From Haloterrigena salifodinae (GTDB lineage: Archaea; Halobacteriota; Halobacteria; Halobacteriales; Natrialbaceae), in the NCBI RefSeq assembly GCF_003977755.1, contig NZ_RQWN01000006.1, forward strand, positions 124,001-188,000: a DNA stretch of 64,000 bases, in the 5' to 3' direction. Below the pieces are notes generated by a model, which was given only the letters and a program-made list of their open reading frames with translations, did no database searches and was not told the DNA's origin. Positions 1,535 through 57,048 of this stretch are shown piece by piece. The translations under genes were made by a program, and so were the position numbers. Position 1 is the first letter of the stretch, and each line of letters opens with the position of its first letter.

Positions 1535-1851
1535 AGGGGATCGTACTCGACGAGGCGGCGGTGCTGCTGGCCGACGGCGACACCGTGGCGACGGCGATCG
1601 CCGACCTCGAGGCCGGCCGCGCCATCGAAACCGAGGACTTGCCGGGCGATCGAACGGTCCTCGAGGTCGCCGAACCGATCGCGTTCGGCCACAAGCTCGC
1701 CGTGACGGCGATCAACGCCGGCGAGCCGATCGCCAAGTACGGCGAGGTCATCGGCAGCGCCACCGAGCGGATCGAGCCGGGCGAGTGGGTGCACACCCAC
1801 AACTGCGAGAGCAACCGCGGCCGCGGCGATCTGGCGGAGGGGTCGGCGTGA
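1531..1851 (+). CDS. UxaA-family dehydratase, small SAF-domain subunit
   Basis: A 106-residue protein with the SAF fold found at the N-terminus of altronate and galactarate dehydratases. Recognisable features are the AFGHKLAV segment, the GEPIAKYGEVIG motif and the late THNCES motif, typical of the UxaA N-terminal domain. It starts with GTG overlapping the TGA of the preceding large-subunit gene, and its own end overlaps the GTG of the following gene (1848). The three genes therefore form one tightly coupled operon. It should bind the large subunit from 347-1534 to complete the active site. Confidence 0.85.
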   Translation: MKGIVLDEAAVLLADGDTVATAIADLEAGRAIETEDLPGDRTVLEVAEPIAFGHKLAVTAINAGEPIAKYGEVIGSATERIEPGEWVHTHNCESNRGRGDLAEGSA

Positions 1852-7894: not shown

Positions 7895-9709
7895 TTAGCC
7901 GATGTACTCCATGCTCGCCTCGTCCGTCTTGGGGATGAGGTACAGCGCGTCCTCGGTCCCATCGATGATGCCGTCGGGCGCGTCGAGTTCCCAGTTGTCG
8001 GCGTTGTAGGCACCGGCGTCGGGCTGGAACATCACTTCCATCTGCGGAACCGTCTGGTTCCACCACCACATCAGTTCCTTGTGGAACTGGTCGTCGTCGG
8101 TGACCTGCCACTCCCGGATGTGCTCCTCGACGTTGATCGTCTTCGTTCCCTCGGAGCCGTCGGGGTCGCCGACGGGCATCGGGATTTCCGCTTCGGGTTC
8201 GAAGTGCGAGATCGACTGGACCCAGTTCGGCACGAGGTCCAGCGCCCACAGCGCGCGGATCCCGTTCGCGGACGAACCGTCGGGCATCATGTCGTACTCG
8301 CCGTTCTGTCGGCGCTCGTCGAACGTCGCGTCGTCGACCTGCTCCTGGTTCGTCTTGATACCGAACTCATTCAGATTGTCCTTGAGAACGCCGAAGTCCT
8401 TCCGCTCGGAGCCGTTCATGATATTGATCTCGAACTCCTCGCCGTCCGGCGTGTACCACTGTCCGTCCTCGAGCGTGTAGCCCTCCTCCTCGAGGAGTTC
8501 GGCGGCGCGTTCGGTGTCGTTCTGGCCGTACTTGGTGAAATCCTGGACCCAGTCTGCGGCGTCGTGGGTACCGCTGTCCAGCACGTTGCCGGGGACGCGA
8601 CACGGCGCCCAGTCGAACATCCGATTGACGCCCTCGAGGACCTGGGTGACCTGCTGACGGTCGAAGACGTGACAGACCGCCTTGCGCACGTTCGCACTCG
8701 AGAACGGCGTGTCGTAGGAGACGTCGTGCCCGCAGTTGAACGTGAACAGCTTGTTCGTCGAGAAGCTCTCCTTGATGAGCGTGTGTCCCTCGGGGAGTTG
8801 GCTCTTGACGTCGTCCTCGACCGGGAACTGGGTGTGCGCGGCGTCGACCTCGCCGTTGGCGTAGGGCTGGGTCGGGTTGTTGTTCTCGTAGAGGTGGAAC
8901 GAGTACTCGCTGAAGTTGATGTTGTCGGCGTTCGGGTGATCTTCGTACTTCTCGAAGACCATCACGTTGTCCCCGATGTCGGCGACCTGGAACGGACCGT
9001 TCCCGTTCGCGTCCTCGAGCAGCGGGTACGATTTCGTCGTGAGTTCCTCGAGGATGGAATCCATCTCGGAGTCGTCGGCCTCCATGAGCTGGCTGTGCCA
9101 CTCGCTCCACTGGTCGTCGGAGGAGTTGGTGAAGATGCCGCGACTCTCGTCACCGACGAGGTCGGCGGTGGCGTTCTGGACTGCGACCGTCTCCGAGAGC
9201 GGGTCATAGAGATTGATCCGCGCCGTGTACTCGTCGGGCGCCTCGGCGGACTCGAGGAACTGGTGTGGTCGCTCGCCATCCTCGGCCTGGTACTCGAGAA
9301 TCGCGAGGGACATCTGCAGCTGCATGACCCAGTCCTCGGCGGTGAGGTCGTCGCCGTTGTGCCAGGTCCAATCCTCGCTGAACGTCATCTCCAGCGTGGT
9401 GTCGTCGGCCATCTCCCAGTCGGTCGCGATCAGCGGATAGACCGCGTCCTCCGCCGGGCTGTACATCACGGGCCGGTCGAAGATGAGCGCCCCCGGATGC
9501 CACGTCCCGCGCTGGGTCGGCTTGTAGGGGTTGCAGTGACGCTGCGATGGCAGCGTCCCGCTCGTCTCCGCGTCGAACACTCGGAATCGATCTGTGCTAC
9601 CGCTCCCACCCAGACATCCGGCAACGAGGGCTGTACCCCCCACAGCGCTGTATTTCAGGACATCTCGCCGGCTAGGACCGCTGTTCCGCCAGTTGTTACC
9701 CTCTGGCAT
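7895..9709 (-). CDS. Dpp/Opp-type solute-binding lipoprotein, copy 1
   Basis: A 604-residue substrate-binding protein of the SBP_bac_5 family, anchored outside the membrane. The N-terminus has a twin-arginine motif (SRRDVLKYSAVGG) and lipobox LVAGC. The body carries the large bilobed domain with segments such as ANVRKAVCHVFDRQQV. It is one of three tandem paralogues of exactly the same length (the others at 9952 and 12017) and is closest to the permease genes. A TATA box at 9730-9742 gives a leaderless start, and a perfect inverted repeat abuts it. Ligand unknown; an oligogalacturonide is suggested by the surrounding pectinases. Confidence 0.9.
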   Translation of the reverse strand: MPEGNNWRNSGPSRRDVLKYSAVGGTALVAGCLGGSGSTDRFRVFDAETSGTLPSQRHCNPYKPTQRGTWHPGALIFDRPVMYSPAEDAVYPLIATDWEMADDTTLEMTFSEDWTWHNGDDLTAEDWVMQLQMSLAILEYQAEDGERPHQFLESAEAPDEYTARINLYDPLSETVAVQNATADLVGDESRGIFTNSSDDQWSEWHSQLMEADDSEMDSILEELTTKSYPLLEDANGNGPFQVADIGDNVMVFEKYEDHPNADNINFSEYSFHLYENNNPTQPYANGEVDAAHTQFPVEDDVKSQLPEGHTLIKESFSTNKLFTFNCGHDVSYDTPFSSANVRKAVCHVFDRQQVTQVLEGVNRMFDWAPCRVPGNVLDSGTHDAADWVQDFTKYGQNDTERAAELLEEEGYTLEDGQWYTPDGEEFEINIMNGSERKDFGVLKDNLNEFGIKTNQEQVDDATFDERRQNGEYDMMPDGSSANGIRALWALDLVPNWVQSISHFEPEAEIPMPVGDPDGSEGTKTINVEEHIREWQVTDDDQFHKELMWWWNQTVPQMEVMFQPDAGAYNADNWELDAPDGIIDGTEDALYLIPKTDEASMEYIG

Positions 9710-9729
9710 ACTCCCTAGTCATAGAAGGC

Positions 9730-9757
9730 GATATATATAATTAACCATTAGATGGTT
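9730..9757 (-). promoter_or_regulatory. Promoter and inverted repeat before binding-protein copy 1
   Basis: The minus strand carries an AT-rich TTATATATAT box centred about 26 nt before the ATG at 9709. Directly upstream, at 9743-9757, is the perfect inverted repeat AACCAT-TAG-ATGGTT, which covers the position of the TFB recognition element. This placement suits a repressor or activator operator. Confidence 0.5.
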
Positions 9758-9951
9758 TCCAGCGGCTGACGGGCCAGTTTATCACGCGCTCGATCGCTGC
9801 GGTCCGTCAGCGATCCAGACACGTTCGGAGCCGGAACCGACCTGTCGTCCGGCGTCCTTCGAACGAATTCGCGACGACGGGGACGGAGTCACCCCTGAAA
9901 CCAAGCCGTCGATAGCGATGGGTCGACGAAGGATCGGGCGACGGACCCCGA

Positions 9952-11766
9952 TCAGCCCGTGTACTCCATCGTCGCCTCGTCCATCTTCGGGATGAGGTAC
10001 AGCGCGTCCTCGGTCCCGTCGATGATGCCGTCGGGCGCGTCGAGTTCCCAGTTGTTGGCGTTGTAGGCGCCGGCGTCGGGTTGATACATCGTTTCCATCT
10101 GCGGAACCGTCTGGTTCCACCACCACATCAGCTCCTTGTGGTACTGATCATCGTCGGTGATCTGCCACTCCCGGATGTGCTCCTCGACGTTGATTGTCTT
10201 CGTCCCGCTCGAGCCCTCGGGATCGCCGACAGGCATCGGAATCTCCGCTTCGGGATCGAAGTGCGTGATCTGCTGGAGCCAGCCCGGCACCAGATCCAGC
10301 GCCCACATCGCCCGGACCCCGTTGGCCGAGGAGCCGTCGGGCATCATGTCGTACTCGCCGTTCTGCCGGCGCTCGGAGAGCGTCGCGTCATCGACCTCCT
10401 CCTGGTTCGTCGCGATGCCGAACTCGTTCAGATTGTCCTTGAGAACGCCGAACTCCTTCCGTTTGGTTCCGCCCAGGACGTCGATCTCGAACCGGTCACC
10501 GTCCGGCGTGTACCACTCGCCGCCGTCGCGCTCGAATCCCTCCCGTTCGAGGAGTTCGGCGGCGCGTTCGGTGTCGTTCTGGCCGTACTCGGTGAAGTCC
10601 TGGATCCACTCCGCGGCGTCGTGAGAACCGCTGTCCAGCACGTTGCCGGGGACGCGACACGACGGCCAGTCGAACATCCGATTGACACCCTCGAGGACCT
10701 GGGTGACCTGGTCGCGGTCGAAGACGTGACAGACCGCCTTGCGCACGTTCGCACTCGAGAGGGGCGTGTCGTAGGAGACGTCGTGCCCGCAGTTGAACGA
10801 GAACAGCTTGTTCGTCGAGAAGCTCTCCTTGATGAGCGTGTGTCCCTCGGGGAGTTGGCTCTTGACGTCGTCCTCGACGGGGAACTGCGTGTGTGCGGCG
10901 TCGACCTCGTCGTTGGCGTACGGCTGGGTCGGGTTGTTGTTCTCGTAGAGGTGCATTGAGTACTCGCTGAAGTTGATGTTGTCGGCGTTCGGATGGTCCT
11001 CGTACTTCTCGAAGACCATCACGTTGTCACCGATATCGGCGACCTGGAACGGACCGTTCCCGACCGCGTCCTCGAGCAGCGGGTACGATTTCGTCGTGAG
11101 TTCCTCGAGAAGGGTCTCCATCTCGGAGTCGTCGGCCTCCGTGACCTGGCTGTGCCATTCGCTCCACTGGTCGTCGTCGTGTTTGGTGAAGACCCCGCGA
11201 CTCTCGTCGCCGACGAAATCGGCGATAGCGTTCTGAACCGCGACCGTCTCTGAGAGCGGGTCGTAGAGATTGATCCGCGCCGTGTACTCGTCGGGCGCCT
11301 CGGCAGACTCGAGGAACTGGTGCGGTCGCTCCCCGTCTTCGGCCTGGTACTCGAGAATTGCAAGCGCCATCTGCAGTTGCATGACCCAGTCGTCGGCGAC
11401 GAGTTGATCGCCGTTGTGCCAAGTCCAATCCTCGCTGAACGTGAACTCCAGCGTGGTGTCGTCGGTCATCTCCCAGTCGGTTGCAACGAGGGGATAGACC
11501 TCGTCTTTCGCCGGACTGTGGATAGCGGGGCGGTCGAAGATGAGCGCCCCCGGATGCCACGTCCCGCGTTGGGACGGGTTGAAGGGGTTGCAGTGACGCT
11601 CCGACGGCAGCGTCCCGCTCGACTGCGGGTCGAAGACGCGGAACCGATCCGTGCTACTGCTCCCGCCGAGACAGCCGGCAACGAGGGCCGTTCCACCCGC
11701 AGCGCTGTACTTGAGCACGTCTCGTCGATTCTGATCGCTACTCCACCAGCTGTTACCTTCCAGCAT
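9952..11766 (-). CDS. Dpp/Opp-type solute-binding lipoprotein, copy 2
   Basis: Second of the three 604-residue binding proteins, with a Tat motif (NRRDVLKYSAAGG), lipobox LVAGC and the linker GGSSSTDRFRVFDPQ. It is highly similar to copies 1 and 3 along its whole length, and the start ATG follows an AATATATG box (minus strand, near 11790-11800). Differences from copy 1 cluster in the second half (for example EREGFERDGGEWYTPDG and GGTKRKEFG), where ligand contacts would be expected to vary. About 240 bp separate it from each neighbour, so each copy can have its own promoter. Confidence 0.9.
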   Translation of the reverse strand: MLEGNSWWSSDQNRRDVLKYSAAGGTALVAGCLGGSSSTDRFRVFDPQSSGTLPSERHCNPFNPSQRGTWHPGALIFDRPAIHSPAKDEVYPLVATDWEMTDDTTLEFTFSEDWTWHNGDQLVADDWVMQLQMALAILEYQAEDGERPHQFLESAEAPDEYTARINLYDPLSETVAVQNAIADFVGDESRGVFTKHDDDQWSEWHSQVTEADDSEMETLLEELTTKSYPLLEDAVGNGPFQVADIGDNVMVFEKYEDHPNADNINFSEYSMHLYENNNPTQPYANDEVDAAHTQFPVEDDVKSQLPEGHTLIKESFSTNKLFSFNCGHDVSYDTPLSSANVRKAVCHVFDRDQVTQVLEGVNRMFDWPSCRVPGNVLDSGSHDAAEWIQDFTEYGQNDTERAAELLEREGFERDGGEWYTPDGDRFEIDVLGGTKRKEFGVLKDNLNEFGIATNQEEVDDATLSERRQNGEYDMMPDGSSANGVRAMWALDLVPGWLQQITHFDPEAEIPMPVGDPEGSSGTKTINVEEHIREWQITDDDQYHKELMWWWNQTVPQMETMYQPDAGAYNANNWELDAPDGIIDGTEDALYLIPKMDEATMEYTG

Positions 11767-12016
11767 ACTCGATAGCCATAGCAGTCAGGACACATATATT
11801 CAATGATTATTTTCAGTGATAGATGGCCGGTTCAGCAGCCGGTCGTCCGATACTGTCCGGTAGCACCCGTACTCGTCCGAAGAGAGACCGAACTGCTGGC
11901 CTGCGCGGAGTCGAACGGGTTCGAATCGGAGGAGTGTGGGTCGACTCGAAACTGCGACCGATGCGCCGACTGCGGCGGTCCGACGGGATTGTCACTCGAG
12001 TCGGCGAACGCCGAAA

Positions 12017-13831
12017 TCAGCCCGTGTACTCCATCGTCGCCTCGTTCGTCTTGGTGACGAGATAGAGCGCGTCGTCGACGCCGTGGACGATGCCGTCCGG
12101 GCCGTCGATCGTCCAGTTGTCGCCGTTGTAGGCGCCGGCGTCGGGCTGGAACATCGCCTCCATCTGTGGAACCGTCTGGTTCCACCACCACAGCAGTTCC
12201 CTGTGGTACTGGTCGTCGTCGGTGATCTGCCACTCCCGAATGTGCTCCTCGACGTTGATTGTCTTCGTCCCCTCGGAGCCGTCGGGGTCGCCGACGGGCA
12301 TCGGGATTTCCGCTTCGGGATCGAAGTGCGTGATCTGCTGGAGCCAGCCCGGCACCAGATCCAGCGCCCACATCGCCCGGACGCCGTTGGCCGACGACGT
12401 ATCGGGCATCATGTCGTACTCGCCGGCATGGCGACGTTCGTCGAACGTCGCGTCGTCGACCTGCTCCTGGTTCGTCGCGATGCCGAACTCGTTCAGATTG
12501 TCCTTGAGAACGCCGATGTGCTTCTGCTTGGAGCCGTTCATGATGTCGATCTCGAAGCGCTCGCCGTTGGGCGTATACCACTCGCCGTCTTCGAGGGTAT
12601 ACCCCTCCTCCTCGAGGAGTTCGGCGGCGCGTTCGGTGTCGTTCTGGCCGTACTCGGTGAAGTCCTGAATCCACTCCGCGGCGTCGTGGGAACCGTCCTC
12701 CAGCGTAGTTCCCGGAACGCGACACGGCGGCCAGTCGAACACCTGATTGACGCCCTCGAGGACCGAGACGACCTGCTGACGATCGAAGACGTGACAGACC
12801 GCCTTGCGCACGTTCGCGCTCGAGAACGGCGTGTCGTAGGAGACGTCGTGCCCGCAGTTGAAGGTAAGCAACTTGTTAGTCGACAGGTTTTCCCTGACGA
12901 GCGTGTGCCCGTCGGGGAGTTGGCTCTTGACGTCGTCCTTCACGGGAAACTCGTTGTGTGCGCCGTCGACCTCGCCGTTGACGTACGGCTGGGTGGGGAT
13001 GTCGTTCTCGTAGAGGTGGATCGAGAACTCGCTGAAGTTGATGTTGTCGGCGTTCGGATGGTCCTCGTACTTCTCGAAGACCATGACGTTGTCCCCGATG
13101 TCGGCGACCTGGAACGGACCGTTCCCCACTACGTCTTCGACCATCGGATACGACTCCGACGTGAGTTCGCCGACGAGGGCCTCCATTTCGGAGTCGTCGG
13201 CCTCCATGAGCTGGCTGTGCCACTCGCTCCACTGGTCGTCGTCGTGTTTGGTGAAGATCCCGCGAGCCTCGTCGCCGAGGATGGCGGCGGTGGCGTTCTG
13301 GACCGCGACCGTCTCCGAGAGCGGATCGTGGAGGCTGACCCGCGCCGTCTGCTCGTCGGGCGCCTCGACGGACTCGAGGAACTGGTGCGGTCGCTCGCCA
13401 TCCTCGGCCTGAAACTCCAGCATTGCGAGCGCCATCTGCAGTTGCATGACCCAGTCGTCGGCGACGAGCTGATCGCCGTTGTGCCAGGTCCACTCGTCGC
13501 TGAACGTAAACTCCAGCGTGGTGTCGTCGGCCATCTCCCAGTCGGTCGCGATCAGCGGATAGACTTCGACCTCCGCCGGACTGTATATCACGGGGCGGTC
13601 GTGGATGAGCGCCCCCGGATGCCACGTCCCACGTTGGGTCGGATTGAACGGGTTGCAGTGACGCTGGGACGGGAGCGTCCCGCTCGTCTCCGGGTCGAAG
13701 ACGCGGAACCGATCCGTGCTACTGCTCCCGCCGAGGCAGCCGGCGGCGAGCGCTGCGCCGCCCGCGGCGCCGTATTTGAGGACGTCTCGTCGATAGGGTC
13801 CACTGTCTTGCGAATTGTTATCTTGCACCAC
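12017..13831 (-). CDS. Dpp/Opp-type solute-binding lipoprotein, copy 3
   Basis: Third and most upstream of the 604-residue SBP_bac_5 paralogues. Tat signal YRRDVLKYGAAGG and lipobox LAAGC are present. The start is GTG (13831, or the next GTG at 13828); no in-frame ATG fits, unlike the other two copies. A TATAAAT-like box lies near 13850-13862 on the minus strand, about 25 nt ahead. Local sequence differs from copies 1 and 2 in several internal stretches (for example VEDVVGNGPF, NDIPTQPYVNGEVDGAH, VSVLEGVNQVFDW), suggesting an altered ligand range. Confidence 0.88.
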   Translation of the reverse strand: MVQDNNSQDSGPYRRDVLKYGAAGGAALAAGCLGGSSSTDRFRVFDPETSGTLPSQRHCNPFNPTQRGTWHPGALIHDRPVIYSPAEVEVYPLIATDWEMADDTTLEFTFSDEWTWHNGDQLVADDWVMQLQMALAMLEFQAEDGERPHQFLESVEAPDEQTARVSLHDPLSETVAVQNATAAILGDEARGIFTKHDDDQWSEWHSQLMEADDSEMEALVGELTSESYPMVEDVVGNGPFQVADIGDNVMVFEKYEDHPNADNINFSEFSIHLYENDIPTQPYVNGEVDGAHNEFPVKDDVKSQLPDGHTLVRENLSTNKLLTFNCGHDVSYDTPFSSANVRKAVCHVFDRQQVVSVLEGVNQVFDWPPCRVPGTTLEDGSHDAAEWIQDFTEYGQNDTERAAELLEEEGYTLEDGEWYTPNGERFEIDIMNGSKQKHIGVLKDNLNEFGIATNQEQVDDATFDERRHAGEYDMMPDTSSANGVRAMWALDLVPGWLQQITHFDPEAEIPMPVGDPDGSEGTKTINVEEHIREWQITDDDQYHRELLWWWNQTVPQMEAMFQPDAGAYNGDNWTIDGPDGIVHGVDDALYLVTKTNEATMEYTG

Positions 13832-26724: not shown

Positions 26725-27969
26725 ATGGATATCGCCAACGTCAGCGGGTACGCTCTGTCCTCACCGATCGATCCGGTACAAGAACGGCCGTTTCATGGCG
26801 GCGTCCGACGCCTTCGCAAACGGGACGTCGTCCTCGTCGTCGTGGAGACCCGAGACGGGCAACAAGGGTTCGCGACGGCGGGCGCGAGCAGCTCCACGAT
26901 GCGAGAGTACTTCGAGGGCGACTCGCAGGGGACGTTCGCCGACATCGTCGAGGAGTCCGTCGCCGACGCGCTCGAGGGCGAGTCGATCGACGAGATCTCC
27001 GACGCTCACGGCCTGATCGCCGAGACGGATCTCCCGGCCCACCTCCGAACGGAGGCGATCTCGGCCATAGATGTCGCGCTGTACGACATCCGCGGGAAGG
27101 AACTCGGCGCGCCGATCTACGAGCTGCTGGCCGACGAGTACGGCACCGAGCCGACGACCGAGCTGCCGCTGTACGCCAGCGCCGGAATGTATATGGAGCC
27201 GGAGGGATACGTCGAACAGGTCGAGGCGCTCGAGGAGTTGGGCTTTTTCGGCTACAAGTACCGACCCGGGATCGGGCCCGACGGCGACCGGCGGACGGTC
27301 GACCTGCTCGCCGACGCGGTCGACGACATCGAGATCATGCTCGACGTCCACACGTGGTGGAAACTCGGCGAGGCCTACGGCGGCGACACCGTCCGCGAAC
27401 TGGTCGCACACGCCGCTGAGCGGGGCGCCTACTGGATCGAGGAGCCAGTCGAACCCGACGACCACGCGGGCTACGTCGAACTCGCCGAGACCGGTGCGCC
27501 GCTGGCCGGCGGAGAGAGCGAGGAGTCGCCGGCTGGACTAGTCGAACTCGGCGAGACCGGCGCGGTCGACTTCCTGCAGGGTGACGTGCGCCACCACGAG
27601 GGCTTTACCGGCTGCCGGGGCGCCATCGAGTACTGCGACGGTCGCGACGTCGAGTTCGTCCCGCACAACTTCGGCACCTGGCTCGGGCTGCAGGCCAACG
27701 CCCATCTCGTCGCCGCGGCGCCGGACGTGCGGCTGCTCGAGTACCCCGTCTTCGAAGCGGATCCGGCGCTTCCGGACGCGGAGATCGATCCCGGCATGTA
27801 CCCGTTCGAACTCGCCTACGACATCATCGAGGGGCAGCCGGCCATCGAAGACGGGCACCTGACCGTCCCGGACGGCCCCGGACTCGGCATCGACGTCGAT
27901 CTCGACGTCCTCGAAGAGTACCCGTTCGTCGACGGGCCGTGGACGGAGTTCCACTACGACGACGAGTAA
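26725..27969 (+). CDS. Enolase-superfamily sugar-acid dehydratase
   Basis: A 414-residue mandelate-racemase-type enzyme. The N-terminal capping domain covers about 1-130 and the barrel follows, with likely residues Lys178 (GYKYR), Asp207 and His209 (LDVHTWW), Glu239-240 (IEEPVEP), Glu264 (GGESEE) and His314 (PHNFGTW). It should dehydrate or epimerise an aldarate or aldonate. A TATA box sits about 28 nt before the ATG. It precedes a convergent KdgD-like gene, so product and next enzyme may be coupled. I cannot name the substrate; galactarate, glucarate or a 6-deoxy-aldonate are candidates. Confidence 0.8.
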   Translation: MDIANVSGYALSSPIDPVQERPFHGGVRRLRKRDVVLVVVETRDGQQGFATAGASSSTMREYFEGDSQGTFADIVEESVADALEGESIDEISDAHGLIAETDLPAHLRTEAISAIDVALYDIRGKELGAPIYELLADEYGTEPTTELPLYASAGMYMEPEGYVEQVEALEELGFFGYKYRPGIGPDGDRRTVDLLADAVDDIEIMLDVHTWWKLGEAYGGDTVRELVAHAAERGAYWIEEPVEPDDHAGYVELAETGAPLAGGESEESPAGLVELGETGAVDFLQGDVRHHEGFTGCRGAIEYCDGRDVEFVPHNFGTWLGLQANAHLVAAAPDVRLLEYPVFEADPALPDAEIDPGMYPFELAYDIIEGQPAIEDGHLTVPDGPGLGIDVDLDVLEEYPFVDGPWTEFHYDDE

Positions 27970-28029: not shown

Positions 28030-28965
28030 TCAGGCCGCTTCCAGCAGCGGCGCCGACTGCAGGGTTTCGTAGTGCTCCTCGAGACGCGCTGCGTCGTCCG
28101 CGGAGAGGTCGACCAGCGGATCGCGCACGGGACCGCCCGTGTAGCCGGCGAGGTCCATCCCGTGTTTGATGACGGGAACGTTATTCGCGGCCGAGAGCGC
28201 ATTGCCCTCGCCGGGCTCCTCGCGGAGGTCCTCGATCGGTCGGAGCAGCCGCTGGATCGATCGAGCCCGTTCCCAGTTCTCGTCCTCGACGGCGTCGAAC
28301 AGCGCCAGCGTCGCCTCCGGCGCGAAGTTGCCGAGACCGGTGGTGTATCCCTCCGCCCCCTCGATGGCGAAGGAGAGTGCGTACCGCTCGGCGATGCCGT
28401 TGATCCAGGTCACCTCACCCGGAGCGTCGGCGACGGTCTGGGAGAACTCCTTGACGTCGTTGACGGCAAACTTCACTGCGACGACGTTCTCGCGCTCGGA
28501 GAGGTCGACGAGGACCTCACGGGGGACCTCCGGGCCGCGCTTGTAGATGACGACGCCGAGGTCGGTCGCGTCGCAGATCCGGTGGTAGTAGTTCGCCAGC
28601 CCGCGCCGGTGCAGGTAGGTGTGGTCGGGGTGCATCACCATGATCGCGTCCGCCCCGGCGTCCTCGTAGGCGTCGGCGAGCCGTTTTACCTCCTCGAGAC
28701 TCCCGGCGACGCCACCGGCGATCGTCGCCTCGTCGCCGGTCGCCGCGACGTGGGTTTCGACGATCTCGATCCGCTCCTCGTCGGTCAGCGAGTAGTACTC
28801 GCCGGTGTTGCCACAGGGGATAAACAGGCGCGCGCCGGCGTCGTACTGTTTCGCGAGGTTGTCCGCGAGGGCGTCGATCAACACGTCCGATCCGGCGTCG
28901 CCGAACGGGACGGCGGTGGTGAAGGCGACGTCCTGGAAGCGCTTGCTAAGGGCAGCTCTAGCCAT
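28030..28965 (-). CDS. DapA-family dehydratase, KdgD-like
   Basis: A 311-residue N-acetylneuraminate-lyase superfamily protein with Tyr141 (VIYKRG) and the Schiff-base Lys165 (VAVKFAVND). The active-site loop GNTGEYYSL is like that of 5-keto-4-deoxyglucarate dehydratases and 2-keto-3-deoxy sugar acid enzymes, not the GTTGE typical of DapA. The ATG at 28965 gives a normal N-terminus; the much longer open frame upstream is an antisense shadow. It is divergent from a galactarolactone cycloisomerase-like gene (29095). The expected product is 2-oxoglutarate semialdehyde for the ALDH at 35070. Confidence 0.82.
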   Translation of the reverse strand: MARAALSKRFQDVAFTTAVPFGDAGSDVLIDALADNLAKQYDAGARLFIPCGNTGEYYSLTDEERIEIVETHVAATGDEATIAGGVAGSLEEVKRLADAYEDAGADAIMVMHPDHTYLHRRGLANYYHRICDATDLGVVIYKRGPEVPREVLVDLSERENVVAVKFAVNDVKEFSQTVADAPGEVTWINGIAERYALSFAIEGAEGYTTGLGNFAPEATLALFDAVEDENWERARSIQRLLRPIEDLREEPGEGNALSAANNVPVIKHGMDLAGYTGGPVRDPLVDLSADDAARLEEHYETLQSAPLLEAA

Positions 28966-29094: not shown

Positions 29095-30228
29095 ATGGAG
29101 ATCACGGACGTTCAGGCGATTCCGCTCGCACACTCGTTGCCCGACGGAGAGGGGCTCGGCGACGCGCGAGGGTTCGGGACCGACCGCGGGACGACGCTGG
29201 TACGCCTCGAGACCGACGACGGGACCGTCGGCTGGGGCGAGGCGTTCGCCCCGGGGCCGATGGCGACGGCGACGATCGAGACGATGTTCGCCGACGACGT
29301 CGTCGGCATGGACCCCTTCGAGGTCGAATCGCTCGCCGAAAACTCCTACACCGATCCGTATCACTTCGGCGGCGACGTGGTCGTCCAGAGCGCCGTCAGC
29401 GCGATCGACGTCGCCTGCTGGGACATCATCGGGAAGAGCGTCGGCCGGCCGGTCCACCGGCTGCTCGGCGGCACGCGCTGCGAGGAGCTGACGCCTTACG
29501 CCTCGACGATGTACTTCACCGAGGCCGACCGGCCGATCGAAGAGCCGATCCGCGATGCCGTCGAGGAAGGATTCACTGCCGCGAAGATCAAGATCGGCGC
29601 CGACCCCGAGTCCGACGCCGAGCGCGTGCGCACGGCGCGGGAGATCCTGGGTGACGACGCCGACCTGATGGTCGACATGAACGGCAACTACCGGCCGCAT
29701 CAGGCCGTCAAGTCCGCGCGGGCCATCGAGGAGTACGACGTGACCTGGATCGAAGAGCCAGTTCCGCCGGAGAACGCGTCGGGCTACCGCGAACTGCGCG
29801 GAAAGATCGATATCCCGATTGCCGCCGGCGAGGCCCACTACGGGCGGTTCGAGTTCAAAGACCTGATCGACGACCGGACGGTCGACATCGTCCAGCCGAA
29901 TCTGGGCCGCTGCGGCGGCCTCTCGGAGGCGCGCTTGATCGCCGGCATGGCCTCGACCGAGAACGTCGCCGTCAGACCCCATATCTGGAACAGCGCCGTC
30001 GGCATGGCCGCCGCGGTGCAGTTCGCCGCCAGCATCTCGAACTACCCCCACACGCGCAACGTCCCCGAACCGATGCTGATCGAGTTCGACCGCAGCGAGA
30101 ACCCGATGCGCAGCGAGTTGCTCGAGACGCACTTCGATCCCTCCGGCGGCACGATCGACGTCTCGCAGGAGCCGGGGCTGGGCATCGAGATCGATCAGGA
30201 CGCGCTGGAACGCTACCGCACTGACTGA
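29095..30228 (+). CDS. Enolase-superfamily enzyme resembling galactarolactone cycloisomerase
   Basis: A 377-residue enzyme with the KxK motif (Lys164, Lys166 in AKIKIG), metal ligands near Asp194, Glu220 and Glu246, and His296 in RPHIWNS. Several stretches strongly recall the Agrobacterium cycloisomerase Gci as I remember it: CGGLSEARLIA, the AAVQFAAS region, PMLIEFDRSENPMRSELL and the ending PGLGIEIDQDALERYR. Gci turns galactaro-1,5-lactone, the product of uronate dehydrogenase, into a keto-deoxy lactone. That fits the udh gene at 32934. A TATA box (GCTATATTGG) lies about 24 nt before the ATG. A simple galactarate or other aldarate dehydratase is the alternative. Confidence 0.75.
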   Translation: MEITDVQAIPLAHSLPDGEGLGDARGFGTDRGTTLVRLETDDGTVGWGEAFAPGPMATATIETMFADDVVGMDPFEVESLAENSYTDPYHFGGDVVVQSAVSAIDVACWDIIGKSVGRPVHRLLGGTRCEELTPYASTMYFTEADRPIEEPIRDAVEEGFTAAKIKIGADPESDAERVRTAREILGDDADLMVDMNGNYRPHQAVKSARAIEEYDVTWIEEPVPPENASGYRELRGKIDIPIAAGEAHYGRFEFKDLIDDRTVDIVQPNLGRCGGLSEARLIAGMASTENVAVRPHIWNSAVGMAAAVQFAASISNYPHTRNVPEPMLIEFDRSENPMRSELLETHFDPSGGTIDVSQEPGLGIEIDQDALERYRTD

Positions 30229-32933: not shown

Positions 32934-33770
32934 ATGGACGTACTAGTGACCGGTTCGTACGGCCGGTGTGGCACCGCGATCATCGATCACTTGCACGACG
33001 ACGATCGGTACGAGTTCACCTACTTCAATCGCTCCGACCGCGAGGAGGGGCCCTACGCCGAGTACGAGACGGTCGTCGGCGACGTCGCGGACTACGACGC
33101 GCTCCGCGAGGCCTGCGAGGGACAGGACGCCGTCGTCCACCTCGCGGCCTACCCCTACACCGACGGCGACTGGACCGACATCTTCCAGCCCAACATCGTC
33201 GGCATGTACAACGTCCTCGAGGCCGCCCGCGAGGCCGAAGTCGAGTCCGTTATCTTCGGGTCGACCAACCACGTGATGGGCATGTACGAGATCGAGAACG
33301 CCCCCGAGATCTACGAGCGCGACCACGATCTCGTCATCGATCACACCGACCCTGTCCGGCCCGACTCCTATTACGGCGCCTCCAAGAGCTTCGGCGAGGA
33401 CCTCGGGCGGTACTACATCGAGGGCTGCGAGTACCCGAAGCGGTTCTACGCGCTCCGGATCTGCAGCGTTCGCGGCGAGGAGTACGACCACCCCTACGGC
33501 GACGCCGAAATCGGCGTCGAGGAAGGCGACTGGGAGCGCGGCAGCGACGAGTACGAGGAACAGGTCGCGCGGATGAAGGCGACCTGGCAGTCCCGCCGGG
33601 ACTTCGCCCACCAAATCGACTGCTGTCTGCAGGACGAGGACGTCGAGTTCGACATCTTCAGCGGTGTCAGTGATAACCGCCGGCGCTGGTACGACCTCGA
33701 GCACGCTCGCGCGCGGCTCGGCTACGATCCACAGGACGACGGCGAGAAGTGGGACGCACCGCCGGAGTAG
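32934..33770 (+). CDS. udh: Uronate dehydrogenase
   Basis: A 278-residue extended-SDR enzyme that would oxidise D-galacturonate or D-glucuronate with NAD+ to the aldaro-lactone. The nucleotide motif is TGSYGRCGTAI at residues 6-16 and the catalytic Tyr and Lys are in SYYGASKSFGEDLGRYY. HLAAYPYTDGDW, STNHVMGMYE and RICSVRGEEYDHP are also usual for uronate dehydrogenases. It is followed by a metallo-hydrolase gene about 110 bp downstream and belongs with the lactone, dehydratase and semialdehyde dehydrogenase genes nearby. A sugar epimerase is the alternative, less well supported by the short length and motifs. Confidence 0.85.
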   Translation: MDVLVTGSYGRCGTAIIDHLHDDDRYEFTYFNRSDREEGPYAEYETVVGDVADYDALREACEGQDAVVHLAAYPYTDGDWTDIFQPNIVGMYNVLEAAREAEVESVIFGSTNHVMGMYEIENAPEIYERDHDLVIDHTDPVRPDSYYGASKSFGEDLGRYYIEGCEYPKRFYALRICSVRGEEYDHPYGDAEIGVEEGDWERGSDEYEEQVARMKATWQSRRDFAHQIDCCLQDEDVEFDIFSGVSDNRRRWYDLEHARARLGYDPQDDGEKWDAPPE

Positions 33771-33878
33771 CGACGGTTCCGGCCCGAACGGCGTCGAAAG
33801 GTTTAGGCTCCCGCGAGGGGATCCGTTCCGCATGGACCGTGCTAGCGAAACCGACAGCGCGCAGTGTCGGGTGAGTCG

Positions 33879-34730
33879 ATGACGATCACCAGCGACTGGG
33901 GCGAGTGGTGGATCCGGGAGGAGATCAACGGCGCCGACGTCGACGGCGTCTCGCTGTGGTTCCTCGGCGTGGCCGGCTGGGCAATCAGAACGCCCGAGAC
34001 CGCCGTCTATATCGACCCCTACTTCAGCACCGAGCGGGACCGCGAGTACGTCGCCCGGATACCACCAGTGCCGATGGAGCCGCAGTGGGCCGACACCTGC
34101 GACGCCGTGTTCTGTACGCACGACCACCGTGATCACTTCTGGCCGCCGTCGTTCGGGCCGCTGCTGGACCACGGCGGCTCGGTCCACGCGCCGGCCGAGT
34201 GTTACGAGAACCACGACGTGAGCGAGATCGCGGACGACCAGCAGACGGTCGTCGAACCCGGCGACAGCTACGCAGTCGGCGACCTGACGATCCACGTTCG
34301 GGACGGCCGCGATCCCGACGCCGACGGCAGCGTCACCTACGTGCTCGAGCACGAGGCGGGAACGATCTTCCACGGGGGCGACAACCGCCCCTGCGAAGCG
34401 TTCCGCGAGATCGGCAAGGAGTTCGACATCGACATGGGGATGCTCTCCTACGGCACCAGCGGCCGCATCAGGATGGACGGCAAAGTCGAGCGTCGGAAAC
34501 TGTACAACGATGCCCAAGACATCATCGAGGCCGCCAACGCCCTCGAGATCGATCGGCTGGTCCCGGAGCACTCGCGGCGCTGGCGATCGATCCAGGCCGA
34601 TCCCGGCGCGCTCTCGAAGGCTGCAACGACCTTCGAGTACCCCCGCATCATCGAGGAGATCGAGGTTGGCGACCGACTCCGACTCGGTCAGCCCGGGATC
34701 GTCCCGCCAGCCTACCTCGAAGACGAGTGA
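33879..34730 (+). CDS. UlaG-like metallo-beta-lactamase-fold hydrolase, candidate lactonase
   Basis: A 283-residue cytoplasmic metallo-hydrolase. The metal motif HxHxDH is at His81, His83, Asp85 and His86 in CTHDHRDHFWP. Later ligands are probably in FHGGDNRP and VPEHSRRW. The general form recalls UlaG, an L-ascorbate-6-phosphate lactonase. It follows uronate dehydrogenase on the same strand, so opening of galactaro- or glucaro-lactone is a reasonable hypothesis. The ATG at 33879 has a GGGTGA Shine-Dalgarno-like stretch just before it; a GTG at 33864 is an alternative. Another lactonase candidate is at 38726-39814. Confidence 0.78.
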   Translation: MTITSDWGEWWIREEINGADVDGVSLWFLGVAGWAIRTPETAVYIDPYFSTERDREYVARIPPVPMEPQWADTCDAVFCTHDHRDHFWPPSFGPLLDHGGSVHAPAECYENHDVSEIADDQQTVVEPGDSYAVGDLTIHVRDGRDPDADGSVTYVLEHEAGTIFHGGDNRPCEAFREIGKEFDIDMGMLSYGTSGRIRMDGKVERRKLYNDAQDIIEAANALEIDRLVPEHSRRWRSIQADPGALSKAATTFEYPRIIEEIEVGDRLRLGQPGIVPPAYLEDE

Positions 34731-35069: not shown

Positions 35070-36521
35070 TCAGTAGTTCATGTAGACCGTCTTCGTCGAC
35101 GTGAAGAAGTCCAGCCCGGCGTCGCCCTGTTCGCGGTAGGTGTCCGTCGAGGACTCCTTGTAGCCGCCGAAGGGCACGTGGAGCTCGAGACCGGTGGTCT
35201 TCTCGTTGACCTTCGCGACGCCCGCTTCGACGTTCTCGGCGAACTGGTTGGCCTCGGTGAGGTCGTCCGTGACGATGCTCGCCGAGAGCCCGTAGTCGAC
35301 GTCGTTGGCGAGCTCAAGGCCTTCCTCGAAGCTGCTGACCTTCAACACGGCCAGCACCGGCCCGAAGACCTCCTCCTGGGCGATGCGCATGTCGTTGTCC
35401 ACGTCGGCGAAGACCGTCGGCTCGACGTAGTAGCCGTCGGCGTACTCGCCCTCGGTGAGCCGCTCGCCGCCGGCGACCAGTTCCGCTCCCTCGCCTTCGG
35501 CGACGTCGATGTACTCGAGGCTCCCCTCGAGTTCGCTCTCGGTCACGTGGGGGCCCATGTCCGGATCGTCCGTTCCCGGCCCGACCTCGATGGTCTCGGC
35601 GTAGTCGGCGATGGCGGCGACGAACTCGTCGTAGATGTCCTCGTGAACAATCGCGCGGGAGGCCGCAGTACAGGACTGACCAGTCGTCCCGAACGCGCCG
35701 GCACCGACGATGTCGACGGCCTCGTCGACATCGGCGCTGGGCATGACGACCGTCGGGTTCTTCCCGCCCATCTCACACTGGACGCGTTTGAGGTCGTCCG
35801 CAGCGGCCTGAGCGACGGCGGTCCCGACTTGCGTGCTCCCGGTGAACGAGACCGCGTCGACGCCCTCGTGGTCAGTCAGCACGCCGCCGACTTCGCTGCC
35901 GGAGCCGGTGACGTAGTTTGCGACGCCGTCGGGCAGTCCCGCTTCGTCGAGCGCCTCGAGCAGTTTCCAGGAGACGGTCGGCGCCGCCGAGGCGGGTTTG
36001 AGAACGGTCGTGTTGCCCGCGGCCAGCGCCGGTGCGAGCTTCCAGGCCGGGATCGCGATGGGGTAGTTCCACGGCGTGATCAGCGCGGCAGTTCCCAGCG
36101 GCTCTTTCTTCGTGTAGAGGTTCTTGTCCTCGCCGCTGGGGGACTTGACGGTGCCGCCGAGGTCGCTGGCCTTCTGTGCGTAGTAGTAGAAGATGTCGAT
36201 CGCACGCTGGACCTCGCCGCCGGCTTCGCTGAGCGTCTTCCCCTCCTCCTGGGTCAGCGTCTCGGTCAGGTCCTCCTTCTGGTCCTCGAGGATCTGGGCG
36301 GTTTCCTTGAGGATCGCGCCACGGGCCGGACCGGGTGTCGACGCCCACTCGTCCTGGGCGGCGACCGCGGCCTCGACGGCCGCCTCAGCGTCCTCGGTGG
36401 TCGACGACTGGAACTCGCCGACGACCTCGGTCGTGTTCGCGGGGTTCAGTACCTCGAACGTCTCTCCGGAACGCGATTCGACCCACTCACCATCGACGTA
36501 GTTACGATGCGCTGTCGGCAT
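35070..36521 (-). CDS. Aldehyde dehydrogenase, probable 2-oxoglutarate semialdehyde dehydrogenase (copy 1)
   Basis: A 483-residue NAD(P)-dependent aldehyde dehydrogenase. It has the cofactor-site WNYPIAIPAWK region near 151-161, FTGSTQVGT, Glu250 in CEMGGKNP and catalytic Cys284 in GQSCTAASRA. This type commonly oxidises 2-oxoglutarate semialdehyde to 2-oxoglutarate, the last step after KdgD, which fits the adjacent uronate genes. The start at 36521 gives MPTAHRNYVDGEW, the same as in the copy at 55597-57048; an in-frame extension upstream is unlikely. Substrate is inferred, the family is certain. Confidence 0.87.
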   Translation of the reverse strand: MPTAHRNYVDGEWVESRSGETFEVLNPANTTEVVGEFQSSTTEDAEAAVEAAVAAQDEWASTPGPARGAILKETAQILEDQKEDLTETLTQEEGKTLSEAGGEVQRAIDIFYYYAQKASDLGGTVKSPSGEDKNLYTKKEPLGTAALITPWNYPIAIPAWKLAPALAAGNTTVLKPASAAPTVSWKLLEALDEAGLPDGVANYVTGSGSEVGGVLTDHEGVDAVSFTGSTQVGTAVAQAAADDLKRVQCEMGGKNPTVVMPSADVDEAVDIVGAGAFGTTGQSCTAASRAIVHEDIYDEFVAAIADYAETIEVGPGTDDPDMGPHVTESELEGSLEYIDVAEGEGAELVAGGERLTEGEYADGYYVEPTVFADVDNDMRIAQEEVFGPVLAVLKVSSFEEGLELANDVDYGLSASIVTDDLTEANQFAENVEAGVAKVNEKTTGLELHVPFGGYKESSTDTYREQGDAGLDFFTSTKTVYMNY

Positions 36522-36663
36522 TCGGACTAGTCGTTTCGGTGTTCTCCACACCAACCTTCGTTTTCCGGCAAAATTCCCAGCGCGTACCGACGATCACCTG
36601 CTGATTGAAGCGCAACCGCCGAACCCTAACTAATTTATACAGGAGACGCGAAGTATCGTGGTA

Positions 36664-38725: not shown

Positions 38726-39814
38726 TTACGCTGACTCAAGGAACGTCGCACAGACCGGTTTCGGCACGTCGAATTCCGCGAGCGGCTCGAGGCGCCCAGT
38801 CTCGTCGATCGCGAAGCTCGCGACCGCGTCGCCGTGCTGGTTGCTCGCGAGGAGCAACGCGCCGTCGGGAGCGAGCGCGATGTCGCGGGGCGTCTCCCCG
38901 CGTGTCGGTTCGCGGGCGAGTGGCTCGAGACGGCCGGTCGCCGCGTCGACCGCGAAGACGGCGACGCTGTCGTGACCCCGGTTGGAGACGTACACCCACC
39001 GACCGGACGGATGGACGTGAACGTCGGCTGGCTCATTGGTCCCGTCGAACGCGGACGGCAGGGTGCTTGTCCGATCGATCGCCGCGAGCCCGCCTGTCTC
39101 GGCGTCGCGCTCGTACGCGGTCACCGTCGACTCGAGTTCGTCGACGACGTAACAATACGGCTCGGTCGGATGGAAGGCGATATGACGCGGTCCTGCGCCC
39201 GCACGGACGGTCGTCGGTCCGGCCTCGGCCGGCCGGAGCGCCCCTGACTCGTCGGCGCGATAGATCTCGATGCGATCGGTCCCGAGGTCCGGCGCGTACC
39301 GGAACCGATGCTCCGGCCCGGAAGCGATCGCGTGCGGGTGCGGAGTCACCTGACGCTCCGGGTCGGGACCGGAGCCTTCGTGGGCGACGACGTCGGCGAC
39401 CTCGCCGAGCCGACCGTCGTCCGCGAGCGGATACGCCGCCACGGTCCCGCCCTGGTAGTTCGCGACGAACGCGTACTGGCCGAGAGCGTCGACGCTGACG
39501 TAACAGGGACCGGCGCCCTCGCTCGAGCGATCGTTGAGCCGCTCGAGTCCGCCGGTCTCGGCGTCGATTCGATAGGCCGACACGCGCCCGCCGTCGACGC
39601 GCTCGACGGCGTACAGGGTCTCCCCGTCGGGACGGAGCGCCAGAAACATCGGATCCGGCGCGGACGTGCACGCCCGTTCGGTCGGCGTTCCGTCGGGCGC
39701 CACCGCCACGGTGACGATACCGTCGCCGTCGCTTCCGGCCGAACAAATGAACGTCTGATACGGACCGTCTCGAGTCACGGTCGAACGAAACGGGCGGGCG
39801 GACCTTGGGTCCAC
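38726..39814 (-). CDS. Seven-bladed beta-propeller lactonase (YbhE/Pgl-like)
   Basis: A 362-residue protein of the lactonase/6-phosphogluconolactonase propeller family. Repeating blade segments such as DPMFLALRPDGETLYAVE, GPCYVSVDALGQYAFVANY, GPRHIAFHPTEPYCYVVDE and EPADVHVHPSGRWVYVSNR are clear, including the conserved Arg-His and His patches (TPHPHAIAS). No signal peptide is seen. It would hydrolyse a sugar lactone, and together with uronate dehydrogenase or the convergent Gfo/Idh/MocA enzyme that makes sense. The start could instead be the GTG near 39779. Its 3' end has a decayed relative at 57641-57789. Confidence 0.83.
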   Translation of the reverse strand: MDPRSARPFRSTVTRDGPYQTFICSAGSDGDGIVTVAVAPDGTPTERACTSAPDPMFLALRPDGETLYAVERVDGGRVSAYRIDAETGGLERLNDRSSEGAGPCYVSVDALGQYAFVANYQGGTVAAYPLADDGRLGEVADVVAHEGSGPDPERQVTPHPHAIASGPEHRFRYAPDLGTDRIEIYRADESGALRPAEAGPTTVRAGAGPRHIAFHPTEPYCYVVDELESTVTAYERDAETGGLAAIDRTSTLPSAFDGTNEPADVHVHPSGRWVYVSNRGHDSVAVFAVDAATGRLEPLAREPTRGETPRDIALAPDGALLLASNQHGDAVASFAIDETGRLEPLAEFDVPKPVCATFLESA

Positions 39815-54241: not shown

Positions 54242-55180
54242 TTAGTTGATGAGGGATTCGATCTCGTCGTCAAGTTGATCGTACAGCCGTTCGGCCTTCC
54301 GTTCCTCTTCGGGCTGGAGCGTGCGGATCGGTTCGCGGACGTTGCCGCCGTGGAGACCGGCGAGTTCGAGCCCTTTCTTGACCGCCGAGACGCTGATCGC
54401 GCCGGCGATTGCGTTATCCTGCCCGGTTTCGTCCCGGAAGTTCTGGTAGGGCAGGCAGATATTCCGGAGTTCGCAGGCGCGCTCCCAGTCGCCCTCGGAG
54501 AGCGCGTCGAACAGTTCGAGCCCGACCTCTGGGCGGAAGTTGCTGACGCCCGCGGAGAAGCCCTCCGCCCCCTCCGCCCAGTACGAGACAGCGTAGGGTT
54601 CCGCGAGCCCGTCGACCCAGACAACGTCGTCGGCACCGGCCTCGACGGCCGCGCCGAGCTTGACCGGATCCTTCAGCGCGTACTTGATCCCGACGACGCC
54701 GTCGACGCGGGTGAGGCTGGTGAGGTAGTCGACGGACGGGTCGAAGCCGCGGACGTAGGGAACGAGCGGCGTCTCAGTCGACGAGGCGAGGTTACGATAG
54801 TACTCCAGCAGTCCCTGTTCGTGAAGATATGTGTGGTCCGGCGGCATGATCATCATCGCGTCGACGTCGATACGATCGTACGCCGCAATCAGTTCCGTGG
54901 CGTTGTGCGTGCTGCCGCCGACGCCCGCGAGGACGCAGGCGTCCGACGGGAGCGCGTCGACGCTCGTCTCGGCGACGTCGACGCGCTCGCTCGCCGACAG
55001 CGAGTGGTACTCGCTGATGTTCGCGGTCGCAAGGAACGTCCGAATCCCGGCGTCGTACAACTCCTGTGCGTTTTCCGCGATTTTCTCGTGTTCGATCTCG
55101 AGGTCGTCATCAAATGGTGTCAACAGACCGACAGCAACGCCACGGAGACGGCTCCGTACCTGCTCGACTGGCAATGACAT
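54242..55180 (-). CDS. DapA/KdgD-family dehydratase, second complete copy
   Basis: A 312-residue aldolase-superfamily protein with Tyr142 (LVPYVRGF) and Schiff-base Lys166 (VGIKYALKD). It is distantly similar to the 28030 protein and nearly identical at its N-terminus to the partial gene at 1-129. The loop NISEYHSL replaces the NTGEYYSL of 28030, so substrate handling may differ. The start is the ATG at 55180, supported by the match with the 1-129 gene and by an aligned TATA box (TTTATGTTGG, 55201-55210); the open frame continues upstream but is not coding. It probably acts on a keto-deoxy sugar acid. Confidence 0.83.
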   Translation of the reverse strand: MSLPVEQVRSRLRGVAVGLLTPFDDDLEIEHEKIAENAQELYDAGIRTFLATANISEYHSLSASERVDVAETSVDALPSDACVLAGVGGSTHNATELIAAYDRIDVDAMMIMPPDHTYLHEQGLLEYYRNLASSTETPLVPYVRGFDPSVDYLTSLTRVDGVVGIKYALKDPVKLGAAVEAGADDVVWVDGLAEPYAVSYWAEGAEGFSAGVSNFRPEVGLELFDALSEGDWERACELRNICLPYQNFRDETGQDNAIAGAISVSAVKKGLELAGLHGGNVREPIRTLQPEEERKAERLYDQLDDEIESLIN

Positions 55181-55596
55181 AATAGCAGGAAGTATTGCGC
55201 CCAACATAAACCCATCGGCTAAAACTGACCCCGCACGGCACAGGTATCTCGAAGTCAGTGGATCTTGGCGTCGTTTTGCCGACAAAAACCGGCGATCGAT
55301 CGTTTCGCGTGACGATACAAAGCCAGCGATAGACGAGCCCTCGATCAACCGGCGTCGAATACTGACATCTGCACCGAAGACAGTCCGTGAGGAAAGGGGA
55401 TCGGGTAAGGGCCATCCCATACTCGTCAGTACATTTGGTGCACCAGGAACGAGAAAATCGCCGCCCGTTCCGGGACGGGACCCTTGAGGGACCGGTTAAC
55501 CGATACCGAACGGTGCTGGCGTCGGATCGAACAGCGAATCGACCGCCGAGAAGAATTGAACTCGAACTGCGCGCTACGGGAAGGGGCGACGGCGGA
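55181..55596. other. Intergenic region between the second DapA and second ALDH genes
   Basis: It carries the DapA promoter at its left. At its right (about 55500-55596) it is similar to the 3' flank of the first ALDH gene (about 34965-35069). No gene is supported. Confidence 0.5.
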
Positions 55597-57048
55597 TCAG
55601 TAGTTCATGTAAACCGTCTTCGTCGACGTGAAGAAGTCCAGTCCGGCGTCGCCCTGTTCGCGGTAGGTGTCCGTCGAGGACTCCTTATAGCCGCCGAAGG
55701 GCACGTGGAGCTCGAGGCCGGTGGTCTTCTCGTTGACCTTCGCGACGCCCGACTCGACGTTCTCGGCGAACTGGTTCGCTTCGGTGAGGTCGTCCGTAAC
55801 GATGCTCGCCGAGAGGCCGTAGTCGACGTCGTTGGCGAGCTCGAGGCCTTCCTCGAAGCTGCTGACCTTCAGTACGGCCAGCACCGGCCCGAAGACCTCC
55901 TCCTGGGCGATGCGCATGTCGTTGTCCACGTCCGAGAAGACGGCCGGCTCGACGTAGTAGCCGTCGGCGTACTCGTCGCCGGTGAGCCGCTCGCCGCCGG
56001 TCTCGAGGGTCGCGCCCTCGTCTTCGGCGATTCCGACGTACTCGAGCGTGCCCTCCAGTTCGCTGTTCGTGACGTGGGGGCCCATGTCGACGTCCTCGTC
56101 GCCGGGACCGATCTCGATGGTCTCGGCGTACTCGGTGACGCCCTCGACGAACTCGTCGTAGACGTCCTCGTGGACGATCGCGCGGGAGCAGGCGGTACAG
56201 GCCTGCCCGGTGACGCCGAACGCGCCGGCACCGACGATGTCGACGGCCTCGTCGACGTCGGCGCTGGGCATGACGACCGTCGGGTTCTTCCCGCCCATCT
56301 CACACTGGACGCGTTTGAGGTCGTCCGCGGCGGCCTGGGCGACGGCGGTTCCGACCTGCGTGCTCCCGGTAAAGGAGACGCCGTCGACGCCCTCGTGGTC
56401 GGTCAGCATGCCGCCCACCTCGCTCCCGGAGCCAGTGACATAGTTTGCGACGCCGTCGGGCAGTCCCGCTTCGTCGAGCGCCTCGAGGAGTTTCCAGGAG
56501 ACGGTCGGCGCCGCCGAGGCGGGTTTGAGGACGGCCGTGTTGCCCGCGGCCAGCGCGGGGGCGAGCTTCCAGGCTGGGATCGCGATGGGGTAGTTCCACG
56601 GCGTGATCAGGGCGACAGTGCCGAGCGGCTCTTTCTTGGTATAGAGCTCCGTGTCCGTGCTGCTGGATGACTTGACGGTGCCGCCGAGGTCGCTGGCCTT
56701 CTGTGCGTAGTAGTAGAAGATGTCGATCGCACGTTGGACCTCGCCACCGGCTTCGCTGAGCGTCTTCCCCTCCTCCTGGGTCAGCGTCTCGGTCAGGTCC
56801 TCCTTCTGGTCCTCGAGGATCTGGGCGGTTTCCTTGAGGATCGCTCCTCGTTCCGGGCCGGGCATCGACGCCCACTCATCCTCGGCGGTGACTGCGGCCT
56901 CGACCGCCTCTTCGGCGTCTTCGGACGTCGACGACTGGAACTCGCCGACGACCTCGGTCGTGTTTGCGGGGTTCAGTACCTCGAACGTCTCTCCGGAACG
57001 CGATTCGACCCACTCACCATCGACGTAGTTACGATGCGTTGTCGGCAT
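55597..57048 (-). CDS. Aldehyde dehydrogenase, probable 2-oxoglutarate semialdehyde dehydrogenase (copy 2)
   Basis: A 483-residue protein, the same length as the one at 35070-36521 and nearly identical to it. Differences are concentrated around residues 40-60, 128-138, the region after the active cysteine and 330-360. Catalytic Cys284 (GQACTACSRA) and Glu250 (CEMGGKNP) are kept, so it should be active. It is the best preserved member of a duplicated block whose other genes have decayed. Its GC-rich sequence contrasts with the less GC-rich DNA on either side. Confidence 0.86.
   Translation of the reverse strand: MPTTHRNYVDGEWVESRSGETFEVLNPANTTEVVGEFQSSTSEDAEEAVEAAVTAEDEWASMPGPERGAILKETAQILEDQKEDLTETLTQEEGKTLSEAGGEVQRAIDIFYYYAQKASDLGGTVKSSSSTDTELYTKKEPLGTVALITPWNYPIAIPAWKLAPALAAGNTAVLKPASAAPTVSWKLLEALDEAGLPDGVANYVTGSGSEVGGMLTDHEGVDGVSFTGSTQVGTAVAQAAADDLKRVQCEMGGKNPTVVMPSADVDEAVDIVGAGAFGVTGQACTACSRAIVHEDVYDEFVEGVTEYAETIEIGPGDEDVDMGPHVTNSELEGTLEYVGIAEDEGATLETGGERLTGDEYADGYYVEPAVFSDVDNDMRIAQEEVFGPVLAVLKVSSFEEGLELANDVDYGLSASIVTDDLTEANQFAENVESGVAKVNEKTTGLELHVPFGGYKESSTDTYREQGDAGLDFFTSTKTVYMNY

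Follow-up and report, generated by a model that had tools for sequence, protein, structure and literature searches.

A UlaG-like metallo-beta-lactamase-fold hydrolase beside a probable uronate dehydrogenase in haloarchaeal pectin clusters: a candidate accessory aldarolactonase

Among the bacterial enzymes that handle the lactone product of uronate dehydrogenase (Udh), UxuL is of the SMP-30 type, UxuF is of the propeller type, and Gli, the galactarolactone isomerase of Agrobacterium, is an amidohydrolase-type isomerase. According to the passage of PMC6353982 that cites Bouvier 2018, the two lactonases UxuL and UxuF open galactaro- and glucaro-1,5-lactones; Gci, the Agrobacterium cycloisomerase, accepts both aldarolactones (PMC6353982). 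In haloarchaea, the pentonolactonase of Haloferax has been assigned to SMP-30 (PMC9795676), and no characterised enzyme for the lactone-opening step of uronate catabolism was found in the literature searched.

The locus considered here lies in a haloarchaeal genome of 4.96 Mb, within a stretch of 64,000 nucleotides (the window). The window matches, nearly gene for gene, plasmid-borne pectin clusters of Haloterrigena turkmenica (pHTUR02) and H. salifodinae, and the locus is a pectin cluster of Haloterrigena type. With families assigned from Pfam and NCBIfam profile matches, the gene order runs pectinesterase, Enol1, KdgD (minus strand), Enol2, ABC transporter, Usp, Udh and MBL, continuing with a KGSA dehydrogenase (minus strand), a PPC protein (minus strand), a Gfo/Idh protein and a propeller lactonase (minus strand). 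The features used below are as follows.

26725..27969, plus strand: Enol1, enolase superfamily, more divergent (Pfam MR_MLE; 5olc 1e-31)
28030..28965, minus strand: KdgD, 5-dehydro-4-deoxyglucarate dehydratase-like (NCBIfam PRK03620 160 bits, under the cut-off of 278; DHDPS Pfam)
29095..30228, plus strand: Enol2, enolase superfamily, dehydratase or galactarolactone-cycloisomerase-like (5olc 7e-71, 4ggb 4e-66)
32934..33770, plus strand: Udh, uronate-dehydrogenase-like extended SDR of 278 aa
33796..33807, plus strand: BRE/TATA-like promoter element GAAAGGTTTAGG of the leader-MBL unit
33832..33882, plus strand: leader minicistron of 16 codons, MDRASETDSAQCRVSR
33864..34730, plus strand: MBL open reading frame as called, GTG start, 288 aa
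33879..34730, plus strand: MBL-A, UlaG-like metallo-beta-lactamase-fold hydrolase of 283 aa, candidate aldarolactonase (Pfam PF12706/PF13483 above cut-off)
35070..36521, minus strand: 2,5-dioxovalerate (KGSA) dehydrogenase (NCBIfam NF052305 874 bits, cut-off 750)
38726..39814, minus strand: 7-bladed propeller lactonase, the rival lactonase (Pfam Lactonase PF10282, E 9e-105)

The layout given in a preliminary description of this DNA is borne out: a UlaG-like HxHxDH gene follows udh on the same (plus) strand, and the propeller gene lies 4.0 kb from the MBL stop. For the KGSA dehydrogenase, a start at 36521 suits the NCBIfam model. Two gene types are duplicated within the window, namely KdgD-like (28030-28965 and 54242-55213) and KGSA-dehydrogenase-like (35070-36554 and 55597-57048), and three successive solute-binding-protein-like paralogues of 604 aa occupy 7895-13831 on the minus strand. 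Two successive open reading frames on the plus strand (347-3014) look like UxaA/GarD when read by eye from the sequence; a galactarate/altronate dehydratase of this kind would need the opened acid, and hence a lactonase. Scanning the regions ahead of the pectin genes in the window for a palindromic operator common to them yielded GC-rich dyads only, with a sample of candidates as shuffled control.

The label udh for the gene at 32934-33770 is itself an inference, and the protein is a probable uronate dehydrogenase. Among solved structures it matches uronate dehydrogenases best (3ay3 and 6mfh at E about 1e-24, 3rft at 5e-20), and the catalytic YxxxK is present as YGASK, aligned with YGLSK of 3ay3. 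The top NCBIfam match is the haloarchaeal SDR glucose-6-phosphate dehydrogenase Azf (NF041293), whose motif is NLTx2H (PMC8506132). Identity with Azf was ruled out by the score (189.7 bits vs a cut-off of 400) and by the absence of the NLTxxH motif from the Udh sequence.

Orthologues and the RefSeq annotation place the start of the MBL protein at ATG 33879 (MTI.SDWGEWW), five codons inside the GTG-initiated frame. Both Pfam Lactamase_B_2 and Lactamase_B_3 exceed their cut-offs, and the metal-binding motif reads T-H81-D-H83-R-D85-H86 (HxHxDH, here HDHRDH); D168 (in HGGD) and H231 (in VPEH) are likely further metal ligands. All six residues are invariant across 24 relatives drawn from the MBL-A, MBL-B and core groups. 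MBL-A thus shows the profile matches, the HxHxDH motif and the downstream Asp and His that define UlaG-like members of the superfamily. A serine after metal ligand His231 was considered as a mark of Udh-linked copies and rejected, as just three of the nine such copies aligned carry it. The nearest solved relatives are UlaG proteins, both in single-sequence phmmer searches (3bv6 1.9e-13, 2wyl 2.6e-10) and with a family profile (3bv6 E 8e-34, 2wyl E 8e-28), followed in the latter by UPF0173 hydrolases at E 1e-7. The NCBIfam UlaG equivalog PRK11709 scores MBL-A at 70.7 bits, under its cut-off of 306, so that the protein is UlaG-like rather than UlaG; no ula PTS or ascorbate genes occur among the annotated genes of the pectin cluster in the syntenic record. 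A structure predicted from 14 MBL-A sequences reached a mean pLDDT of 47.

In a maximum-likelihood tree of 70 homologues, MBL-A forms a tight clade (at least 75% identity) of 24 rows including the window, with a stem of 0.98 and support of 100/100, the bootstrap being not fully settled. Some member of the whole family is found in 143 of 145 Halobacteria. The core clade usually lies near Dph2- and HisG-like genes (frames read by eye), and because this paralogue occurs there in nearly all Halobacteria, the family as a whole is not sugar-specific; in several loci (L065, L069, L071, L072, L075, L078), the next gene after the core copy is usually conserved and unnamed. The sister clade MBL-B, with 43-49% identity to MBL-A, has a different setting. 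In 13 loci it lies near a Gfo6 D-xylose 1-dehydrogenase, usually together with a KGSA dehydrogenase, an enolase-type dehydratase or FAH, and 12 of these 13 xylose-dehydrogenase-linked copies form one supported clade, with the Halorussus copy L158 on a long, uncertain branch. The order in Halorussus vallis is MBL, KGSA dehydrogenase, Gfo6, MR/MLE, FAH, with no SMP-30 gene in the stretch covered there. The same kind of MBL is therefore paired with a second lactone-forming dehydrogenase, unrelated by family to Udh; this pairing constitutes the best argument, by guilt of association, that these proteins may act as lactonases. Some other relatives (L049, L050, L062) stand beside classical SDR dehydrogenases.

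The preliminary description had asked how often this MBL gene neighbours udh in haloarchaea. MBL-A adjoins Udh in nine Natrialbaceae records (the window, L039, L040, L041, L042, L138, L139, L140/L167 and L246), all with the order Udh-MBL-KGSA dehydrogenase; among the 31 fetched loci with a close Udh, it lies within 7 kb in seven. At the genome level, MBL-A is carried by 17 of 391 Halobacteria, and a close Udh (E<=1e-105 or better) is found in 16 of these 17 vs 61 of the 374 others (Fisher 2e-11; by genus, p 0.0014), kinship and shared pectin lifestyle being not fully corrected in either test. Both kinds of context expected of an aldarolactonase, adjacency to Udh and co-occurrence with it, are thus observed, and the co-occurrence does not tell Udh apart from the other genes of the pectin set. 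MBL-A is unlinked to Udh outside Natrialbaceae, and the genomes beyond the nine records hold it as a lone gene among housekeeping genes, read by eye as potassium-transport and response-regulator genes in Haloferax, CetZ/Trk/Spt5-like genes in Halosimplex, and nucleotide-salvage genes in Natronoglomus and Halovivax. In the nearly closed genomes G100 and G152 (the latter from the family sample), MBL-A and Udh occupy different contigs. Four further Halosimplex genomes with MBL-A have Udh at 69-72%, and the one of the 17 MBL-A genomes without a close Udh, the Halosimplex-like G246 (L160), has a best Udh of 49%.

These unlinked copies bear on an unlikely alternative, namely that MBL-A acts as a hydrolase on some other ester, lactone or phospho-compound of pectin-degrading cells and that it came to lie next to Udh late, on plasmids of Natrialbaceae. 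Such a history would suit the lone genes of Haloferax, Halosimplex and Halovivax, which possess their own promoter and leader, as well as the housekeeping surroundings of the core paralogue and the genome that has MBL-A without a close Udh; it is opposed by the strong co-occurrence with Udh and by the position of the sister clade near Gfo6. Consistent pairing with unrelated pathways, named at the outset as evidence against a lactonase role, is seen to the extent that unlinked copies sit amid housekeeping genes, and no single other pathway recurs consistently.

The surroundings of Udh were surveyed in the DISPLACEMENT test, which covered 93 Udh loci, those with Udh at 75% or more being termed close (n=31, the window not counted). 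Within 7 kb of the close genes, MBL-A was found in 7 of 31 and so not in most Udh clusters, the propeller in 9 of 31, both in 4 and neither in 19. Neither lactonase candidate is therefore obligatory in the cluster. Eight of these 19 have MBL-A elsewhere in the genome, leaving 11 of 31 close clusters that lack both candidates within 7 kb and belong to genomes in which no MBL-A was found. In unannotated loci, genes were called by a simple ORF scorer and by similarity to the window's proteins, so that unrelated lactonases may have escaped notice; the searches for SMP-30 and amidohydrolase genes were run with only two query proteins each. On pHG3 of Haloferax gibbonsii (L155:21116-23915), an SMP-30 gene overlaps a KdgD-like gene and adjoins a 64% Udh. 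The variety of candidates near Udh is what a lactonase slot occupied by various folds would give, and is also compatible with a dispensable step.

A second uronate gene arrangement places a UxuA-like gene, Udh and the propeller one after another, with KdgD and KGSA dehydrogenase present in most cases (L143, L146, L186, L187, L188, L205, L209, L222, L225, L230). The ten haloarchaeal loci where the propeller is a neighbour of Udh and the cluster also contains a UxuA-like gene raise the possibility, which we regard as rather unlikely, that the aldarolactone is in fact opened by the propeller, a role that UxuF may have in bacteria, and that the MBL has another function. The strong PF10282 match of the window's gene, which may be a UxuF counterpart, is in keeping with this, as are the clusters that have the propeller and no MBL-A (L118-L120) and the bacterial precedent of UxuL and UxuF. 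The propeller is also carried by the window and five syntenic records; against its being the real aldarolactonase, it is missing within about 10 kb in three of the nine Udh-MBL records, and it leaves the tracking of Udh genomes by MBL-A unexplained.

The enolase-superfamily gene offers a route that would need no lactonase. Enol2 resembles both 5olc, named galactonate dehydratase (242 bits), and its second-best solved match 4ggb (227 bits), which we take to be Gci; the lactone may thus be used directly, and since 5olc outscores 4ggb, a dehydratase is equally likely. Enol2 occurs near Udh in 35 of the 93 loci, 25 of which lack any lactonase candidate. Taken with the substrate range of Gci, this would suit a pathway in which Enol2 consumes the lactone, or the lactone opens spontaneously, and MBL-A is incidental. 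We consider this quite unlikely, given the higher score of 5olc and the absence of Enol2 from some Udh clusters.

The expression signals of MBL-A are a new observation. A leader frame of 14-17 codons precedes MBL-A, its stop overlapping the MBL start as ATGA, and it is kept in frame from ATG in 23 of the 24 MBL-A genes and, by eye, from GTG in L046, at distances of 41, 44, 47 or 50, all 2 modulo 3. Whether or not MBL-A is linked to Udh, a promoter element G(A/G)AA...TTTA is conserved 30 bp upstream of where the leader begins. No leader minicistron was found before the MBL-B or core MBL-C genes examined, and in many MBL-B genes a TATA-like box stands directly before the gene instead, at about -30. 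Differences in the leader by codon position number 337, 312 and 368, so the peptide does not appear to be clearly under amino-acid selection. As the frame and position are kept and the peptide is not clearly selected, this pattern suggests that the leader works by translational coupling rather than as a functional peptide. Promoter and leader together are most simply read as making MBL-A a transcription unit separate from Udh; a joint Udh-MBL operon was rejected in view of the conserved MBL promoter.

As a single reading, a lactonase of MBL type acting on the product of Udh fits this comparative evidence best. Specifically, MBL-A may be an accessory UlaG-like aldarolactonase for haloarchaeal pectin (galacturonate) catabolism, to which we assign a probability of roughly 0.4. 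The suggestion of such a role in the preliminary description draws support from the nine adjacent records, the co-occurrence, the xylose-dehydrogenase-linked sister clade and the UlaG proteins as nearest solved relatives, and is weakened by the unlinked copies outside Natrialbaceae, the many Udh clusters without MBL-A, the separate transcription unit, the propellers paired with Udh elsewhere and an enolase that may consume the lactone directly. As an aldarolactonase, MBL-A would be a cytoplasmic, metal-dependent lactone hydrolase, expressed from its own promoter through the leader minicistron with its ATGA overlap. Udh would oxidise D-galacturonate to galactaro-1,5-lactone, which MBL-A would open by a metal-bound hydroxide, with metal holders among the six invariant residues; the galactarate would then be turned into 2-oxoglutarate by an enolase-type dehydratase, KdgD and KGSA dehydrogenase acting in sequence, and MBL-A would be partly redundant with the propeller lactonase. 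More tentatively, and with doubt prevailing, MBL-A may represent a class of MBL-fold aldarolactonase undescribed in the literature searched. It would then belong to a wider UlaG-like family of haloarchaea whose branches open the lactones formed by unrelated dehydrogenases, Udh in the case of uronates and Gfo6 in that of pentoses, in parallel to SMP-30 and propeller lactonases. If MBL-A does carry out the lactone-opening step, the UlaG-like MBL group would add another fold to the lactonases of oxidative sugar pathways, and a substrate class could be assigned to many haloarchaeal annotations reading "MBL fold metallo-hydrolase".

Compared with known systems, UxuL and UxuF act on the Udh product and catalyse the same reaction as that proposed for MBL-A, with folds other than MBL. 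Gli and Gci of Agrobacterium likewise handle this product, and Gci is an enolase-superfamily enzyme resembled by Enol2 and not by the MBL. The haloarchaeal pentonolactonases of Haloferax and Haloarcula provide the lactonase step in oxidative sugar pathways, and MBL-B sits in pentose-type clusters; the Haloferax enzyme is of SMP-30 type, in contrast to the MBL fold of MBL-A and MBL-B. UlaG (2wyl, with 3bv6 as a homologue), the L-ascorbate-6-phosphate lactonase, has the MBL fold (by sequence) in common with MBL-A, and the two share the HDHxDH, GD and PxH motifs followed by a Wxxx(Q/T)ADP segment at about 25% identity, with lengths of about 355 aa for UlaG and 283 aa for MBL-A. Both would be lactone hydrolases, the substrate being phosphorylated for UlaG and, if the present proposal is right, unphosphorylated for MBL-A.
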